Below are positions 35,289-47,738 of a stretch of DNA of 64,000 bases, in pieces. A program made the position numbers and the translations under genes. The notes beneath the pieces are model-generated. The model had not been told where the DNA came from, made no database searches, and worked only from the letters and a program-made list of their open reading frames with translations. Source of the DNA: a virus; the IMG/VR virus record IMGVR_UViG_3300044801_000208, positions 33,809 to 97,808 of that record; one strand, written 5' to 3'. Position 1 is the stretch's first letter, and each line of letters begins with the position of its first letter.

Positions 35289-36026
35289 GTGCCTGTTATC
35301 GTTGGGCAAAAACTGGGGTTTCTCACAATCATCGAACTCCCGTACGGCGGCTTAACAAAAGAAAAGGCTGTTGTCCGATGCGACTGCGGCAAAGAAAAAA
35401 CAGTCGCCATCCACAACATGCTTACGCAAAGAACAGTCAGTTGCGGTTGTTTCCAGAAGCGGCGATCTAGGGAGCTGCACATGAGCAATCTCCACGGCCG
35501 CAGGTTTGGTCGCCTGGTGGCGTTGTCCCCAACGAAGCGGCGGGCCAGGGACGGCGCTATTTTTTGGGCGGTGCGCTGCGACTGCGGGGCGGAAAAGGAG
35601 GTCGGCAGCTCGAACCTAACAAGCGGCAACACGCAAAGCTGCGGCTGCCTTATGCGCGAAAAAGCAAGGAGAGGCTGTCTTCCGGGGGACGCCGCCAGGC
35701 ATTACTATTTGGACAAGTACCAAAGGGACGCTTCGCGAAGGGGTTTTTCGTGGGGATTGTCGGACGATCAATTTTACGCCCTGATTTCTGGGCTATGTTA
35801 CTACTGCGGCGTGAAGCCCACGCTCAACAGCAAGGACAAGGATGGAGTCCTGCTGAGTAACGGCGTGGACCGCAAGGACAACGGGCTCGGCTATAGCCCC
35901 GAGAACTGCGTCCCATGCTGCAAGTTCTGCCAGTACGCCAAGCGCGACCTGCCCTACGCGGAGTTTCTCGATCATTTAGAGCGGGCATCCAAGTTCAAAA
36001 TATGGGAAAAGACGGCGTTAAAATAA
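35289..36026 (+). CDS. HNH homing endonuclease with two N-terminal zinc domains
   Basis: This 245-residue protein has a GTG start after GAGGTGA. Two similar zinc modules (VVRCDCGKEKTVAIHNM ... VSCGCF and AVRCDCGAEKEVGSSNL ... QSCGCL) precede an HNH-type core (GLCYYCGVKPTLNSKDKDG, NGVDRKDNGLGYSPENCVPC, then CKFCQYAKRD). Its last 25 nt overlap the start of the next gene, whose first codons are AT-rich. The same zinc module appears in the HEGs at 39116, 47196 and 60301. Confidence 0.8.
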   Translation: MPVIVGQKLGFLTIIELPYGGLTKEKAVVRCDCGKEKTVAIHNMLTQRTVSCGCFQKRRSRELHMSNLHGRRFGRLVALSPTKRRARDGAIFWAVRCDCGAEKEVGSSNLTSGNTQSCGCLMREKARRGCLPGDAARHYYLDKYQRDASRRGFSWGLSDDQFYALISGLCYYCGVKPTLNSKDKDGVLLSNGVDRKDNGLGYSPENCVPCCKFCQYAKRDLPYAEFLDHLERASKFKIWEKTALK

Positions 36027-37842: not shown

Positions 37843-37870
37843 AACGCTTATGTTAGGAGACATAAGCGTT
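37843..37870 (+). promoter_or_regulatory. Hairpin presenting the SD of the following HEG in its loop
   Basis: A perfect 11-bp inverted repeat AACGCTTATGT/ACATAAGCGTT encloses TAGGAG and ends directly at the ATG (37871). When folded it should limit ribosome access. Similar hairpins precede the HNH genes at 18260 and 55326. Confidence 0.65.
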
Positions 37871-38443
37871 ATGGACAGAGAACAAGTTCAGCGTCAACGT
37901 GTAGAGCAACTAAAAACAGGGGCACCCATTGCGCGGCATCGACGCTGGCACGTAAATCGCGGAATAATTGACCCTGCCTGTGACTTGTGCCCCAAATCAA
38001 GAGAGACGACCACTCGCTCCTGCTTGACCTGCAACCAACCCAAGGAACTAACCGTTGACAATTTCCGGCCGAGTCCTACGGGACTCCGCTGGCATTGCAA
38101 GAAGTGTGACGGCAAGCGCGTCCTCCTGTGGTTCAAGGACCACCCTGAGAAGGAGATGCTCCAATCCGCCCGCCGCCGCGCCAAGCAGGTAGGCGTTCCC
38201 TTCAGCATCACCACCGCAGACATCAAAATCCCAGAGACATGCCCCGTGTTCGGGCAAGAGCTGAAAAAGGGCAGTCGGGAATCACATGAGTGGGCACCCA
38301 GCCTGGACCGGAAGAAACCGGAATTGGGGTACGTCCCCGGCAACGTGCAAGTCCTGTCCAACAAGGCTAACCGCTTGAAAAGCAACGCCACCCTGCATGA
38401 GCTCCAGCAACTCGTTGCCTTCCTTGAGGAATCAGGACTTTAG
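37871..38443 (+). CDS. HNH-like homing endonuclease
   Basis: This is a 190-residue protein. A Cys-rich N-terminus (DLCPKSRETTTRSCLTCNQP, LRWHCKKCDGKR) precedes a basic stretch and the C-terminal nuclease-like motif WAPSLDRKKPELGYVPGNVQ, then VLSNKANRLKSN. The same SLDR...GYV.GNV...AN..K motif occurs in the HEGs at 39116 and 60301. It separates the frameshifted gene from the next assembly gene. Confidence 0.75.
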   Translation: MDREQVQRQRVEQLKTGAPIARHRRWHVNRGIIDPACDLCPKSRETTTRSCLTCNQPKELTVDNFRPSPTGLRWHCKKCDGKRVLLWFKDHPEKEMLQSARRRAKQVGVPFSITTADIKIPETCPVFGQELKKGSRESHEWAPSLDRKKPELGYVPGNVQVLSNKANRLKSNATLHELQQLVAFLEESGL

Positions 38444-39115: not shown

Positions 39116-39685
39116 ATGACAAAGAACGAGAAGATTAGCGCGGCGCTGCGAGATGACATTACCGGACAAAGGTTCGGTCGGTTGGTCGTGCTGTCATACG
39201 CCGATAGCCGATATGAAAAACCGCGCTAGTTGTGCCAGTGCGACTGCGGAGCACAGAAGGTGATCTGCGGGGCCAGCCTCAAGCGGAAACGGACGAAAAG
39301 TTGCGGCTGCTTGAATAAGGAAACCTCAATAGTGAGGTTCACAACGCACGGGAAGTGTAGGACGCCTCAGTACAGCATGTGGTACTCAGCCAAGGCGCGG
39401 GCAAAGAAGTCTGGGCTGGAGTTTGACCTACGTGCGGAGGACATCCAGGTTCCGGAACACTGCCCGCTGCTAGGAATCAAGCTAGAGCCGGGGAACGAGA
39501 AGAAACCGGCATGGAACAGTCCCTCACTGGACAGGTATGACTCCATGAAGGGGTACGTGCGGGGCAAGGCCGCGTTCCAGGCAGCCTCGCAGGCGCACCT
39601 CGCCTACCTGCGCACCGCCGCCGGGCTCCCAGCCACGGCGCGGGTGCAGCTCTCGGACGACGGGACGACGGTCATCTCCAGCTAA
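39116..39685 (+). pseudogene. HNH homing endonuclease with nonsense codon and replaced C-terminus
   Basis: The frame from ATG 39116 (MTKNEKISAALRDDITGQRF) meets TAG at 39227-39229 where relatives have Trp (KPR-stop-LCQCDCG), then continues through the zinc module (CQCDCGAQKVICGASLKRKR, SCGCL) and PSLDRYDSMKGYVRG. At that point the family's GNV.VIS..AN motif is replaced by a GC-rich Ala-rich tail (KAAFQAASQAHLAYLRTAAG...) in phage codon style. So this HEG is both truncated by a stop and fused to a fragment of another gene. Confidence 0.7.
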
Positions 39686-39722: not shown

Positions 39723-42700
39723 ATGGACGAGTTCTTCGACGACAGCCTGGTCGACATAGCGCCCGCCGCCAAGGACCTCACCCTTGAGCGGTCCGGCCTC
39801 CTCCGCGACCACTTCCCGTTCGACGAGGTCCGCGCCAACCAGGAGCACACCCTGGACAGGCTCGCGGCCTGGAACCAGTCCCCCAAGAAGTTCTTCGTCC
39901 TTGAGGGCCCGACTGGCTTCGGCAAATGCTTCGCCCCCGGTACTCCCGTTTTGATGCACGACGGTACGGTTAGGACGATCCAAGACGTGCGAGTCGGAGA
40001 CTCGTTGATGGGGGACGACTCCACCCCTCGCCGAGTGCTTTTGCTGTCGCACGGCTTTGACCAGATGTTTGACGTAGTCCCTGTTAAAGGTGACAGCTAT
40101 AGGGTCAACAGCCGCCACATTCTCAGCCTGAAGTTCACGAAAGGCATCGGGACAAAGGGAACCTACTCCAACAACCAAAAATCCCAAGTCCCGCAGTACC
40201 GTAGGCTGGGAATCAAAGCCGGTCCAGGTGCAACGATCGACATCCCCCTCAGCGACTATCTTGATTTGTCAAAGAGCCAAAAACACATCCTCAAAGGCTA
40301 CCGCGTAGGCGTTGAATTCCCCGCGCAAGACGTGCCCATTGACCCGTACTTCCTCGGCCTCTGGCTGGGCGACGGAGACAAGGACAGGCCTGCGGTGACA
40401 ACCGCTGATCCTGAAATCGGTGGGTTTTTGTGCGGTTACGCGAAAGAACTTGGGCTTTCTGTCAACTCTCAGTTTCACAACGGCGCATACACGAGAGACT
40501 TGAACACCGGGAAGCGCGGAGGAAACCCGAAAAGTCGGGAGAAAAACCCGCTACTTGAGGGGTTCCGCGGCCTCTCCGTGCTGAATAACAAGCACATTCC
40601 TCTGCTGTACAAGCGCAACTCTAGGGAAGTCCGGATGAAGGTGCTGGCGGGCGTCGTGGACTCCGACGGGAGCAGGGTCAAAGGCGGGTATGAGTTCACT
40701 CTGGAAATAAAGCGCCTAGCCGAGGACCTGACGTACCTTTGTCGCTCCCTTGGGTTCGCGGCGTACATGAAGCCCTGCGAGAAGACCTGCACCAACGGCA
40801 AGAATGGCCCCGCGACGGGGCGGTACTACCAAGTCCTGATGTCCGGCTTCGGCGTTGAAAAAATCCCGTCTACATTGATACGCAAACAGGGCCTCCCAAG
40901 AAAGCAGAAAAAAGACCCGCTTGTCACAGGGATAAAAGTCCTGCTAGCGGGTTACGGGGAGTTCTTTGGATTCTCCGTGGACGGAAACGAACGGTTTCTG
41001 CTTGGTGACTTTACGGTAGTGCACAACTCCCCCGTCGCGATCGCCGAGGCCTCCTTCGCCAAGACCATGCCCGGCTTCGGGGAGTTCTCCCCCGGCGCAC
41101 ACATCCTCACCCCGCAGAAGACCCTCGCCGCGCAGTACATGGACGACTTCGCCCGCTTCGGCCTCAAGGAGCTCAAGGGGCGGGCCAACTACCACTGCGA
41201 CAAGTGGACGGACATTAACGGGGAGGACATCGACTGCGAGATCGGCGCGATGCTCAACGACTCGGGCGGCCTGGACGAGCGGTGCGACCACTGCCCGTAC
41301 CGCGCCGACAAGGACCGCTACATCGCCTGCCCGCTCGGCACCACGAACTTCTCCTACTACCTGAACGAGGCCCGCTTCGCCGGGGAGCTCCCGAGGCGCA
41401 ACATGCTGATCCTCGACGAGGGCCACAACACCGAGGAATGTCATCCGCCGGAGACGGAAATAGATATTTGTGTCGGTTTCGAGAAGCAGGGACGGCAAAG
41501 GACAGCCAAGACCCGATCTTTTCCAATCGCCTCACTGACAGACGGGCAGAAGGCAGTTTCGTGGAACCGCGCCTCTGACAGTCTCCATCTCTCCGGCAGG
41601 CAAATTCGCGTAGGTCAACGTCAGTACACAGGCACTATGCTGACGGTGGAATCCGGGGGCAAGAAAACCCGTGTCACACCTAACCACTGGTTTTGGGTGA
41701 GGTTCAATTCAACAGCACGCAAGAAGTATATTTTGTACCTGATGCACAAGGAGGGTTATGGATACCGCATTGGGGTTACAAGATTCCGCTCCGCCAGCCA
41801 GCATGGACTCGGTCTGGTGTCCAGAATGCGGCAGGAGGGAGCGGATAAGGGCTGGGTGTTGGCGCTGTACGATTCTTATTCCGAAGCTGCGAAGTGGGAA
41901 AAGACTTATTCGCTGAAACACGGAATCGCCGATACCTGTTTTCGCGCTAGGAAAAACGTTCTTCAGTCAGACATCAAAGACATTTTCCTCTCCACGCGCG
42001 AGAGGGGTGCTCTCGCCTGTTTAAGGGACCACGGGCGGTACGCGGAGTACCCGATCTGGGAAACTTCCCCGCGTGCGGGGCACAAAGGATACTTCAAGGT
42101 GCGTGCCTGTAATCTCTTGCCGGAAGTCATGGACCTGCCCGCCAGAAAAACAAAAACCAGAGGCGAAAGGCGGCGGCTTATTTTAGACAAAAGCACGACT
42201 GTGACCAGCGCGACCTCAAATCAGTACACGGGAATGGTCTATTCATTAGACGTAGCTGAAGACCACACGTATGTCGCCGATGGGATGATCGTCGGCAACT
42301 GCATTCTCTCCCTGACGGACACGGTCATAGACAAGGACAGGTGCGAGAAGTACGGGGTCCAGGGCAGGCTCCCGGAGTTCGACGAGGGGGACAACGAGGC
42401 GGTGCTCGCGTGGCTCGACGCCGCGTTCATACCAGCGGCGCAGCAGCACGCCGTCGCCCTCGGCAGGAGGATGAGGGAGGCGCGGGACAGCGACAGGGCC
42501 TCCGTCGTGAAGAAGGTCAACGCCCTGGAGCGGTTCCTCCTGCGGGTCAACATGTTCCGCAACTCCGAGGACCCGGCGGAGTGGTTCGCGTGGACGGACG
42601 CGCAGACCAAGGCCCTGACGATCAAGCCGCTCACGGGCCGCCTGTTCGCCGACGACTTCCTGTTCTCCAAGGCGCAGAAGGTCCTGATCTTGTCCGCCAC

Positions 42701-43364
42701 GATCCTGGACTTCGACACCTTCATGCGGAACCTCGGGATCAGGCGCTCGGACGCGGAGACGCTCGCCGTCGACTCGGACTTCCCCGTCGAGAACAGGCCG
42801 CTGTTCTACCGACCGGTCGGGGACATGCGGTACGCGGACATCGACCGCACGCTGCCGCTGATGGCCCCCGTAGTCGGCCAGCTGATGGACCGCTACGCCA
42901 CGAAGAAGGGCATCGTCCACACGAACTCGTACAAGGTCAACCGCTACATGGTGGACTACCTCCGCAGCCACGGCTACGGCGAGCGGGTCGTCACGCACGA
43001 CAGCTCGCGGGGCGCGAGGGAGCAGGCGCTCCAGCGCCACCTGAACAGCCCCGGCAAGCCGACCGTCCTGTTCTCCCCGTCCATGTTCGAGGGGCTGGAC
43101 CTCAAGGAGGACCTCAGCCGCTTCCAGATCATGTGCAAGGTCCCGTATCCCGCGCTGGACCCCTACGTCCGCGCGAGGATGCGCCGCGACCCCGAGTGGT
43201 ACCAGTGGTGTACAGCATTGAAACTTGTGCAGGCTTCTGGGCGTTCAATAAGGTCTAAGACTGACCGCGCCCACACGCACATGCTTGATGCCGGGTTCGC
43301 GAAGTTCATTCAGATGAACAATCGTAGGATGCCTAAGTGGTGGCTGGACTCGATTGTTTGGTAG
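39723..43364 (+). CDS. DinG/XPD-like DNA helicase with two inteins
   Basis: The 1213-residue precursor splices to about 559. Superfamily 2 motifs: GPTGFGK/S (Walker A, split by intein 1), DEGHN (Walker B, DEAH-like, intein 2 just after), then SATILDF, VHTNSYK, LFSPSMFEGLDLKED and QASGRSIRSKTDR (motif VI Arg fingers). A Cys cluster (CDHCPYRADKDRYIACP) between Walker A and B suggests an Fe-S domain as in XPD/DinG. The last about 50 codons (43205-43364) are AT-rich relative to the body, next to the GIY-YIG gene. Preceded by TATAGGGA and ATG. Confidence 0.85.
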   Translation: MDEFFDDSLVDIAPAAKDLTLERSGLLRDHFPFDEVRANQEHTLDRLAAWNQSPKKFFVLEGPTGFGKCFAPGTPVLMHDGTVRTIQDVRVGDSLMGDDSTPRRVLLLSHGFDQMFDVVPVKGDSYRVNSRHILSLKFTKGIGTKGTYSNNQKSQVPQYRRLGIKAGPGATIDIPLSDYLDLSKSQKHILKGYRVGVEFPAQDVPIDPYFLGLWLGDGDKDRPAVTTADPEIGGFLCGYAKELGLSVNSQFHNGAYTRDLNTGKRGGNPKSREKNPLLEGFRGLSVLNNKHIPLLYKRNSREVRMKVLAGVVDSDGSRVKGGYEFTLEIKRLAEDLTYLCRSLGFAAYMKPCEKTCTNGKNGPATGRYYQVLMSGFGVEKIPSTLIRKQGLPRKQKKDPLVTGIKVLLAGYGEFFGFSVDGNERFLLGDFTVVHNSPVAIAEASFAKTMPGFGEFSPGAHILTPQKTLAAQYMDDFARFGLKELKGRANYHCDKWTDINGEDIDCEIGAMLNDSGGLDERCDHCPYRADKDRYIACPLGTTNFSYYLNEARFAGELPRRNMLILDEGHNTEECHPPETEIDICVGFEKQGRQRTAKTRSFPIASLTDGQKAVSWNRASDSLHLSGRQIRVGQRQYTGTMLTVESGGKKTRVTPNHWFWVRFNSTARKKYILYLMHKEGYGYRIGVTRFRSASQHGLGLVSRMRQEGADKGWVLALYDSYSEAAKWEKTYSLKHGIADTCFRARKNVLQSDIKDIFLSTRERGALACLRDHGRYAEYPIWETSPRAGHKGYFKVRACNLLPEVMDLPARKTKTRGERRRLILDKSTTVTSATSNQYTGMVYSLDVAEDHTYVADGMIVGNCILSLTDTVIDKDRCEKYGVQGRLPEFDEGDNEAVLAWLDAAFIPAAQQHAVALGRRMREARDSDRASVVKKVNALERFLLRVNMFRNSEDPAEWFAWTDAQTKALTIKPLTGRLFADDFLFSKAQKVLILSATILDFDTFMRNLGIRRSDAETLAVDSDFPVENRPLFYRPVGDMRYADIDRTLPLMAPVVGQLMDRYATKKGIVHTNSYKVNRYMVDYLRSHGYGERVVTHDSSRGAREQALQRHLNSPGKPTVLFSPSMFEGLDLKEDLSRFQIMCKVPYPALDPYVRARMRRDPEWYQWCTALKLVQASGRSIRSKTDRAHTHMLDAGFAKFIQMNNRRMPKWWLDSIVW
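39927..41027 (+). mobile_element. Helicase intein 1, inserted in the P-loop (GK/S)
   Basis: A 367-residue class 1 intein: starts CFAPGTPVLMHDG, ends DFTVVHN before Ser+1. LAGLIDADG motifs LGLWLGDGDKD and LAGVVDSDGS. Paralogous to the intein at 60905, which sits at the same GK/S position of a different ATPase. The two share an identical 67-nt stretch. Confidence 0.9.
41439..42299 (+). mobile_element. Helicase intein 2, with GIY-YIG-like domain
   Basis: A 287-residue intein: starts CHPPETEIDICVGF, ends GMIVGN before Cys+1 (penultimate Gly rather than His). Splicing blocks include VTPNHWFWV and MVYSLDVAEDHTYVADG. The insert between them reads KKYILYLMHKEGYGYRIGVT ... EAAKWEKTYSLKHGI, a GIY-YIG-like layout rather than LAGLIDADG. 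It sits beside the Walker B motif. Confidence 0.75.
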
Positions 43365-43408
43365 CTTGTTTTCCCGCCGCCAGGCGTATCTGAGAGGCGC
43401 GTCTCTGT

Positions 43409-43819
43409 TCAGGCGTCCACACTCGCTTGCGGTTGGCTTCGGCGACGGAGTTCTCTTATGTTCTTGACGCTTCGCCGCTTTGTGATTTCTGGTTGGGCAT
43501 TTATCCAGTCAAAGCCTCCGTTGCCGCCTTGTCTCAGGTTGTAACAGAGCGGGTCGGTCTTCGCCGCATCCACCAGTTCAAGCTCTTTGGCGAACGCCTC
43601 CGCGCCCGTGTTAAAGATGAAGAGAACATCTTTTCTGAAATTGACTTTGCCGTGTTTGGCTACCGCACGCATAAATACTTTGCCCGGCCCAAGGTAAGAG
43701 TCATTAGGATTGTTCGTTTTATGGACGCCGATGTAGTAGCGACCGTTGGTGAAATCCACTGTTTTGTAGACGGTATAAAGCATTGTGCCCTCTAGGGGCT
43801 GAAAGTCATAAAGTACCAA
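43409..43819 (-). CDS. GIY-YIG homing endonuclease downstream of helicase
   Basis: This is a 136-residue protein. MLYTVYKTVDFTNGRYYIGV and HKTNNPNDSYLGPGKVFM give the GIY-YIG core, with a Glu in AFAKELELVDA and a basic C-terminus. It is convergent with the helicase and lies between the helicase's AT-recoded 3' end and a leftover copy of the helicase C-terminus at 43819-43848. It is flanked by a 13-bp direct repeat. Confidence 0.8.
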   Translation of the reverse strand: MVLYDFQPLEGTMLYTVYKTVDFTNGRYYIGVHKTNNPNDSYLGPGKVFMRAVAKHGKVNFRKDVLFIFNTGAEAFAKELELVDAAKTDPLCYNLRQGGNGGFDWINAQPEITKRRSVKNIRELRRRSQPQASVDA

Positions 43820-43849
43820 TGGCAGACCTCAAGTCCATTGTTTGGTAGC
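43819..43849 (+). repeat. Remnant of the helicase 3' end and 13-bp direct repeat
   Basis: The sequence ATGGCAGACCTCAAGTCC continues into ATTGTTTGGTAGC, reading ...LKSIVW and a stop. The helicase ends ...WLDSIVW and a stop. The 13-mer ATTGTTTGGTAGC is identical at 43353-43365 and 43837-43849. Upstream codons (CTC/CTG, TCC/TCG) differ synonymously. This is what remains of the original helicase end beyond the inserted HEG. Confidence 0.7.
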
Positions 43850-43881
43850 GTTTGGAAGTAGCCAAAACCCCCCTTCCCGGC

Positions 43882-43890
43882 GTATACTGT
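43882..43890 (+). promoter_or_regulatory. GTATACTGT promoter-like motif
   Basis: This copy lies 18 nt ahead of the 35-residue ORF start and is followed by GGGGAGGG as ribosome site. Same spacing as the copy at 15225. Confidence 0.5.
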
Positions 43891-43908
43891 ATGGGGAGGG
43901 AACACCTG

Positions 43909-44016
43909 ATGAAGATCACCACGATTGACCGTAATGCCCTGAGAACCCTGCGAACGGAGATTGACGCCGCCCTTGAGTCCGTTGGCAAGCAGTACGGCGT
44001 GAAACTGACCGCCTGA
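43909..44016 (+). CDS. 35-residue protein, likely a truncated family member
   Basis: MKITTIDRNALRTLRTEIDA, then ALESVGKQYGVKLTA and stop. The opening resembles the N-terminus of a longer phage protein type (LR.EIDAAL..V..KYGV), so this may be a shortened remnant. It has its own promoter-like motif and a strong SD, so a product is likely. Function unknown. Confidence 0.5.
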   Translation: MKITTIDRNALRTLRTEIDAALESVGKQYGVKLTA

Positions 44017-44067: not shown

Positions 44068-44754
44068 ATGAAGAAAACGCTGATCGCAGTTGTAATCCTT
44101 TTGGGCGCGCTGGCTTTCGCACAGGTTCCGGCCTGCAAGAAGCCGACAAATCCCAAGCAGCCGACAAATCCCAAGCAGCCAGTGACAGTCACCGTCACTG
44201 ACACAAACAAGAACAACAACTCCAACAAAAACACCAACACTAACACCAGCGCCTCGTCGAGTAACGCGAGCAGCAACCAGTCGCAGGGTCAACAGCAAAC
44301 AGCGACGGGCGGTAGCGCATCTGCATCCAACGGAGCGCAGAGCAACAGCCAGACTACCAATGAAAACGAAGTGCGGCAGGCTCCTACAGTCATCGCGCCG
44401 GAAGCATTCTCTACAGCGCCGTGTCGTATTGCAGGAGGTTTTGGGGGGTCTCTGCCCGCTGGCAGTCTGAGTTTGGGGGGATCGAAGAAAGACAAGGAGT
44501 GCGACCAGTTTCACATGGCGGCGTTTCTGTCCAGCATCGGGCGCAATGACCTTGCGCTTGAGTTGCTGTGCAGCATGAAGCCTGCTAAGGGTCTGAAGGG
44601 TTGCAGCACACCCCCGGCCCCGCCAGCGCCCCCTGTGGCTTCCCCGGCCCCAGCTAAGGCTGAGGTAGCGGTCGTACAGGCTCCAAAGACGTGCATTGCG
44701 GTCATCACCGCCGAGGACGGCAGCACAAGTTGCGCTCAGTATGCCGGAGAGTAA
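44068..44754 (+). CDS. Exported Asn/Ser/Thr-rich protein
   Basis: This 228-residue protein begins with a Sec signal peptide (MKKTLIAVVILLGALAFAQV). Next come an imperfect KQPTNP repeat, a long Asn/Ser/Thr/Gln low-complexity region, a Cys-containing domain (CDQFHMAAFLSSIGRNDLAL), a Pro-rich stretch and a final CIAVITAEDGSTSCAQY. Probably periplasmic or surface-exposed. No enzyme motif seen. Confidence 0.6.
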   Translation: MKKTLIAVVILLGALAFAQVPACKKPTNPKQPTNPKQPVTVTVTDTNKNNNSNKNTNTNTSASSSNASSNQSQGQQQTATGGSASASNGAQSNSQTTNENEVRQAPTVIAPEAFSTAPCRIAGGFGGSLPAGSLSLGGSKKDKECDQFHMAAFLSSIGRNDLALELLCSMKPAKGLKGCSTPPAPPAPPVASPAPAKAEVAVVQAPKTCIAVITAEDGSTSCAQYAGE

Positions 44755-47195: not shown

Positions 47196-47738
47196 TCACA
47201 AGTTAAGCCTACGCTTGAGGAACTCCTCCCGTATGTCTGAGTCGGAGAAGTTCCTCAGCACCCGCATTTTGTACGGGCGGCGGTTTAGCGTTTGTGTCCT
47301 CCTCGTGCTCCAGCGCACGTTCCCTGGCTCGTAGTCTCCGTTGTTTTCTTCGCGATCTAATGAGTGTTTGGGCGATGGTTTGCGGCCCACGTCAGCCAAG
47401 AACGACTCAAAGCTGGACGCCCACCTCTCGCACACCTTTATTCCGCGCCCCCCGTAGTTGTGGTAGCTGTTGTTCTTCGGGTTGCCGCATCTAGCCCTCA
47501 TCATGCACCAAGCGTTGTACTCTGGCGTGTTCGTCATTCCGTGCGTGGTGACCTGTTCATGTCTGGCACACCCGCAACTTCTTGTTTTGCCCCGTGTGAG
47601 GCAGTAGCTCCTGACGGGGACTAAACGGCCGCACTCACAGGAGCACTCCCACAGCACGGCTCCGTGCCTATCCAATCCGGCGCGTCTCAGGACCTTCAAT
47701 TTCCCAAACGTCTGTCCAGTCAAGTACAACTTCGTCAC
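47196..47738 (-). CDS. Homing endonuclease (zinc module plus SLDR.NG.YEPGN motif)
   Basis: 180 residues on the opposite strand to its neighbours. Zinc module LWECSCECGRLVPVRSYCLT ... SCGCA, then YNAWCMMRARCGNPKN, GGRGIKVCERW, and SLDREENNGDYEPGNVRWST, a catalytic pattern common in phage homing enzymes. It lies beside the 47792 gene, whose first about 70 codons are AT-recoded. Confidence 0.8.
   Translation of the reverse strand: MTKLYLTGQTFGKLKVLRRAGLDRHGAVLWECSCECGRLVPVRSYCLTRGKTRSCGCARHEQVTTHGMTNTPEYNAWCMMRARCGNPKNNSYHNYGGRGIKVCERWASSFESFLADVGRKPSPKHSLDREENNGDYEPGNVRWSTRRTQTLNRRPYKMRVLRNFSDSDIREEFLKRRLNL

Follow-up and report, generated by a model that had tools for sequence, protein, structure and literature searches.

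The 64 kb of DNA analysed here (the window, part of a 97.8 kb IMG/VR virus record) contains a DinG/XPD-like helicase gene followed by an antisense GIY-YIG endonuclease gene and, beyond it, by a short second piece of helicase sequence. We propose that this locus is probably the relic of a gene-end-replacing homing element, which would have carried a helicase 3' end together with the GIY-YIG gene and left the displaced resident end downstream (Table 1). We favour this reading because relatives carry native alleles, the remnant is colinear with them and unique, and the composition of the helicase breaks at 43209. It is further supported by the matching GC3 of the helicase tail and the endonuclease gene, the altered functional sites, the element boundary shared with a second phage, the purifying selection on the catalytic domain and the precedents of yeast WHO elements and fungal mORFs.

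Table 1. Features of the helicase locus (positions in the window)
Feature	Position	Strand	Remarks
DinG/XPD-like helicase gene, target of the proposed element	39723..43364	+	Pfam Helicase_C_2 2.3e-20, Hom_end_hint, Intein_splicing
Two in-frame inteins of the helicase	39927-41027 and 41439-42299	+	Hom_end_hint, Intein_splicing profiles
Putative resident (recipient) part of the last extein	42300..43208	+	GC3 0.98; ends in TACCAGTGG (43200-43208)
Recoded tract, 17 codons 3' of the putative cut site	43209..43259	+	GC3 0.35; change-point; identity pattern
Remaining putative replacement helicase 3' end, up to the stop codon	43260..43364	+	GC3 ~0.68; unlike upstream gene, closer to L082
GIY-YIG homing endonuclease ORF, 125 aa from ATG	43409..43786 (to 43819 with upstream TTG)	-	phrog_314
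Native form of the helicase cut-site region, AAGTACCAATGGCAGAC	43811..43827	+	17/17 identical to L003; right end of shared element
Rest of the probable displaced original helicase 3' end	43828..43849	+	CTCAAG, ~125 bp deletion, then TCCATTGTTTGGTAGC including the old stop
Native intergenic/promoter region	43850..43908	+	Syntenic with L017, L082, L003

The helicase 3' end differs from the rest of the gene

The helicase has 63 viral relatives and contains two in-frame inteins, the first of which carries a LAGLIDADG-type endonuclease domain (Hom_end). Together with the GIY-YIG element, they make three homing parasites with two tolerance strategies in one gene. In the insert of the second intein, the stretch 'YILYLMHKEGYGYRIGVTRF' resembles a GIY-YIG start by eye, without profile support.

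The best GC3 change-point in the helicase exteins fell at codon 43209, with values of 0.97 before and 0.56 after it, and none of 2000 permutations gave a change as strong. This codon comes directly after TACCAGTGG, the codons of the conserved motif WYQWQT (family consensus WYQWQTALKLVQATGRS), and it is the very codon whose site is duplicated in the remnant described below. The tail that follows, which reads TGTACAGCATTGAAACTTGTG..., differs from the rest of the helicase in composition and in codons, as the preliminary description had noticed when it called the functional end recoded. Over its first 17 codons it is 53-55% identical in DNA and 76-82% identical in protein to three relatives, L082, L003 and L017, which are 80-88% identical among themselves over the same codons. 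No upstream helicase window (0 of 268) combined a DNA identity of at most 0.60 with a protein identity of at least 0.7. Several codons of this tract were switched between codon boxes (serine AGC to TCN, arginine CGN to AGG, leucine CTN to TTG), and the conserved Q of WYQWQT is replaced by C, giving the window site WYQWCT. The last 51 codons of the helicase look imported and rewritten. Their GC3 (about 0.57) equals that of the endonuclease gene (0.58) and lies below that of most neighbouring non-mobile genes (0.77-0.98, with 0.65-0.71 for the two genes just downstream), so that tail and endonuclease gene look like one unit; other mobile genes of the window come close, with values of 0.64-0.68. 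By change-point and tail composition, the target is thus a full-length chimeric gene, with a recipient-type 5' part and a donor-type 3' part. No donor with the recoded tail was found among the sequences searched.

The same order of parts, with two copies that are still similar, would also result from a tandem duplication of the helicase's own end, the endonuclease gene being inserted between the copies and the functional copy having drifted or been selected to recode. This is very improbable given that the foreign composition is found in the functional copy and not in the relic, that the box-switching synonymous codons are unlike any upstream window and that the composition of the tract matches that of the endonuclease gene.

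A helicase remnant beyond the endonuclease gene

Within the 64 kb there are exactly two copies of the 13-mer ATTGTTTGGTAGC, at 43353 and 43837, and none on the opposite strand; with their flanking bases the two copies (TCGATTGTTTGGTAGC and TCCATTGTTTGGTAGC) are 94% identical. The second copy belongs to a longer remnant, since 43811-43849 reads AAGTACCAATGGCAGAC-CTCAAG-TCCATTGTTTGGTAGC and its first part, 43811-43833 (AAGTACCAATGGCAGACCTCAAG), corresponds to the native helicase region that surrounds the WYQWQT codons and stands in the native order relative to the end piece. Beyond the endonuclease gene one therefore reads TACCAATGGCAGAC, the uninterrupted form of the motif, then the last helicase codons and then the normal downstream region. 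AAGTACCAATGGCAGAC matches TATCAATGGCAGAC in L017 and TATCAGTGGCAGAC in L082. Compared with L082, the remnant consists of the site region minus 4 bp and the six next native bases, followed, across a gap of some 125 bp, by the native end and stop codon. Aligned colinearly with the native L082 tail, 43812-43850 scored 39.2, against 15.1 ± 3.6 in shuffled sequences (0 of 3000 reached it), and among the 42,642 39-mers of the window, on both strands, only the functional tail also reached this score. A chance repeat was ruled out by these statistics and by the two-copy 13-mer. A common genomic repeat was rejected as well: the 17-mer AAGTACCAATGGCAGAC was found in four unrelated viral contigs, in unrelated genes, at about the chance rate for a collection of this size.

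The remnant continues into the native spacer (CAAAA..CCTTCCC..GTATACT..GGAGGGAAC) and then into the next gene, with 60 nt from the old stop to the next ATG in the window and 63 in L017. The right-hand copy is thus joined to native downstream DNA with its spacing kept, which indicates an original gene end in its original place. As the displaced end measures only about 38 nt, its origin rests on short matches plus synteny.

The preliminary description had given the coordinates and letters of the repeat correctly and had seen a GIY-YIG gene between the two helicase ends. Its view of the right-hand copy as the leftover of the original end is upheld by the native alleles of L017 and L082, by synteny and by the cut-site half of the remnant (43811-43833), which it had missed and which is the more telling half, so that the observation is larger than first described. 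Its reading of the remnant as LKSIVW holds for the SIVW and stop, which are the gene end; the LK most likely comes from the QTALK codons by the site, joined to them through the deletion of about 125 bp. The comparison of last codons that it had suggested was too weak a test (15 of 16 bases shared with L082 for the remnant, 14 of 16 for the functional copy), and since these codons alone are not decisive, the leftover reading was decided by the cut-site half, the break at 43209 and synteny. Two objections that it had raised fail: relatives do have endings of this type (-SIIW or -AIIW), and the 13-mer is not a common repeat in the 64 kb.

Alternatively, 43811-43848 might not be a helicase relic but the beginning of a very small or disrupted gene downstream (ATG GCA GAC, encoding MADLKSIVW and a stop). 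Indeed, the window and L003 share ATG-GCA-GAC, and in one contig that is unrelated (L012) the 17-mer coincides with a start codon. However, no ribosome-binding site was seen by eye, the frame ends after 9-10 codons in both phages, the uninterrupted alleles of L017 and L082 have no such gene here, and the stretch matches native helicase sequence up to the stop. We therefore regard a small gene as extremely unlikely.

Native alleles and the boundary of the element

The endonuclease gene is missing from L017 (on a contig of 170 kb) and L082 (on one of 332 kb), which are fully syntenic with the window and carry the native allele. Their sites read TGG TAT CAA TGG CAG ACG GCG CTC AAG and TGG TAT CAG TGG CAG ACC GCA CTC AAG, respectively, and their helicases end in GACGCAATCATTTGGGGATAA and AACTCCATTATTTGGTAGC. 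About 60 bp after the helicase comes the same next gene as in the window, which begins MIKAFDKSNLKTLRADIDAA in L017. L003, which shares one contig with L018, L080 and L084, carries the same endonuclease (80% protein identity) in the same place and orientation as in the window. The two DNAs are alike through the endonuclease gene and its 5' flank, and the likeness stops exactly after AAGTACCAATGGCAGAC (GCAGAC), as it should if the DNA of the recipient picks up again at the cut. At L003 5614-5627 the antisense endonuclease ORF extends over the helicase stop, with a 14-nt overlap, and its final codons are complementary to those that close the helicase gene.

The functional site of L003 is also altered, to WYSWQT (CAA to TCT and A to G), in the other half from the change in the window, while both remnants keep the consensus TACCAATGGCAGAC. 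Such a pattern would follow if every functional copy had to withstand the enzyme, and these alterations in two phages are consistent with allele-specific cleavage and a resistant carried allele. The functional tail of L003 has native-looking codons and composition. Recoding is thus not a constant feature of the mobile unit, and the extreme recoding belongs to the lineage of the window or to its donor.

The native-looking tail of L003 would also suit a free-standing phage endonuclease gene located in the spacer between the helicase and the next gene, whose later homing co-converted part of the helicase, the repeats being coincidence or slippage; the T4 free-standing endonucleases SegG and SegF cut a neighbouring gene and co-convert it in this way (PMC2988022). 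But insertion into a spacer would leave no helicase sequence past the endonuclease gene, where we found two native helicase pieces, in order and continuous with the native downstream DNA; the window and L003 also have the site piece in common. We consider the spacer origin unlikely and retain the replacement of the gene end. A group I intron around the endonuclease gene was set aside, as the helicase frame is complete before this gene, which is antisense.

The endonuclease is a truncated GIY-YIG enzyme

The phrog_314 'homing endonuclease' profile matched the window copy at 5.6e-29 and the full-length, 197-aa copy of L003 at 1.7e-32, and the Pfam GIY-YIG score was below the Pfam cut-off. The best solved match to the predicted fold of the L003 homologue was the catalytic domain of I-TevI (1ln0, prob 1.00, E 0.014), in a model of modest confidence overall (mean pLDDT 67) but of high confidence over the first 80 residues. 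The GIY-YIG catalytic fold and motif residues are present, and the catalytic domain of the window copy is intact in sequence. The C-terminal DNA-binding region, which forms helical segments in the L003 model, is gone from the window copy: in the alignment with L003 a 62-nt frameshifting deletion removes the C-terminal part, and a second deletion takes the end of the gene where it meets the helicase. Because of this loss, the window enzyme is probably inactive, a truncated member of the GIY-YIG family, and the element dead or dying. Over the first 107 codons, dN between the window and L003 was about 0.06-0.08 and dS about 0.55-0.97 (dN/dS about 0.06-0.14), which indicates that the catalytic part evolved under purifying selection.

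Close relatives of the endonuclease were not found in bacterial genomes. Other endonucleases of the same family (L005-L009) have no helicase nearby, and several of them adjoin tRNA genes, with a tRNA-Met gene directly adjoining those of L006 (5507-5583), L007 (4135-4211) and L009 (3286-3360). L009 also has a 5' half-tRNA-like piece just before the endonuclease (region before 2807), and its tRNA-Met is followed by a 3' half-tRNA-like piece, an arrangement suggestive of a tRNA gene that was split while a second one was brought in.

Proposed mechanism

In the model that we propose, the mobile unit would comprise the helicase 3' end (43209-43364) and the adjacent antisense GIY-YIG gene, up to 43827, and its sequence around the cut site would differ from that of the target. 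In an ancestor, the endonuclease would have cut within the conserved WYQWQT/motif VI region of a resident helicase, close to TGG^CAGAC; in helicase DNA of the L017/L082 type this site would lie near TACCARTGGCAGAC. The model thus places the cut no more than a few bases from the positions that correspond to 43208 and 43827. Repair from a donor with the unit would have joined the resident 5' part to the donor 3' end, producing a full-length chimeric helicase presumably resistant to cleavage. The endonuclease gene would thereby have been placed behind the helicase, and the recipient's own 3' end stranded downstream. Later, deletions of 4 bp and about 125 bp would have shortened the stranded end, and the endonuclease would have lost its C-terminus.

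I-TevI is autorepressing and has an operator. The half-site retained here, just upstream of the endonuclease's own start, may be a putative operator like that of I-TevI, and some of the 17 nt that are identical in L003 may owe this to another constraint, for example an operator or a start region.

Relation to known homing systems

Gene-end-replacing homing is experimentally documented for the yeast WHO elements (Torulaspora/Lachancea, target FBA1; Coughlan et al. 2020, PMC7282813), whose mobile unit is an endonuclease gene plus an upstream target 3' end that confers resistance, and whose homing pushes the recipient's old 3' end downstream, where it may decay. The phage locus resembles them in its full-length chimeric target with a donor-type 3' end of different sequence, in the endonuclease gene directly downstream, in the displaced original 3' fragment, able to decay, beyond it and in a putative break inside coding sequence (PMC7282813). 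It differs in residing in a phage instead of a nuclear yeast genome, in targeting a helicase, in its antisense endonuclease gene that overlaps or abuts the target stop, and in its remnant of only about 38 nt; moreover, we infer cleavage and resistance here. As the enzyme is of GIY-YIG type and not of the HO/VDE LAGLIDADG type that characterizes the WHO family proper, the phage element is, by analogy, one that works like a WHO element, yet it is not a member of that family.

Fungal mitochondrial mORFs with C-terminal duplications, described by sequence in Allomyces atp6 and in Glomus atp6, atp9, cox2 and nad3 (PMC3630166), likewise join to the resident gene a C-terminal part that is foreign and has diverged at synonymous sites, with an endonuclease ORF and the native C-terminus downstream, and the Glomus atp9 endonuclease is also GIY-YIG (PMC3630166). 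Unlike the phage case, they belong to organelle genomes, and most of their displaced ends are much longer. The T4 free-standing endonucleases (SegF, SegG and others) resemble our locus in their phage host and in being GIY-YIG enzymes of the I-TevI type; they cut a neighbouring gene and co-convert a resistant allele (PMC2988022), as we propose here, but they sit in spacers and no duplicated or displaced target 3' end is described for them (PMC2988022). In the literature searched, including T4 and ICP1 homing endonuclease papers, we found no phage case with a displaced or duplicated target-gene end, which is not proof of absence. Like inteins and endonuclease-bearing group I introns, the element occupies a conserved motif of an important gene and is tolerated there; unlike them, it involves no splicing, and the gene is mended by a new gene end that the element carries.

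In the papers found, gene-end-replacing homing was documented for yeast nuclear genes and fungal mitochondria; here its full anatomy is seen in a phage. Because its endonuclease fold is unrelated, the phage case points to a splicing-free way of inserting into an important gene that arose by convergent evolution. It also offers a concrete mechanism for the patchwork codon usage and chimeric ends of phage genes. Natural unaltered alleles (L017, L082) and altered alleles (window, L003) both exist. As a tentative extension, phages might possess a class of gene-end-replacing homing elements that evolved independently and that, if true, would add to introns and inteins a third means of residing in an important gene. 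Their invasions would each rewrite the target 3' end around the cut, and their half-site might double as an operator.

Neighbouring genes of the window

The gene after the element (43909-44016) is shortened to 35 codons, whereas its counterparts in L017, L003 and L082 have about 216; an unrelated ORF of 228 aa (44068-44754) comes next. Four other ORFs (35289-36026, 37850-38443, 39230-39685 and 47196-47738, the last on the minus strand) appear by eye to be HNH/zinc-ribbon homing endonuclease-like, without Pfam support; they sit between core genes, and two of them have a lower GC3 (0.64-0.68). The window also contains a 23-nt repeat (36414 and 36794, 96% identical) and a 17-nt repeat (46781 and 47566), the latter near the ORF at 47196.
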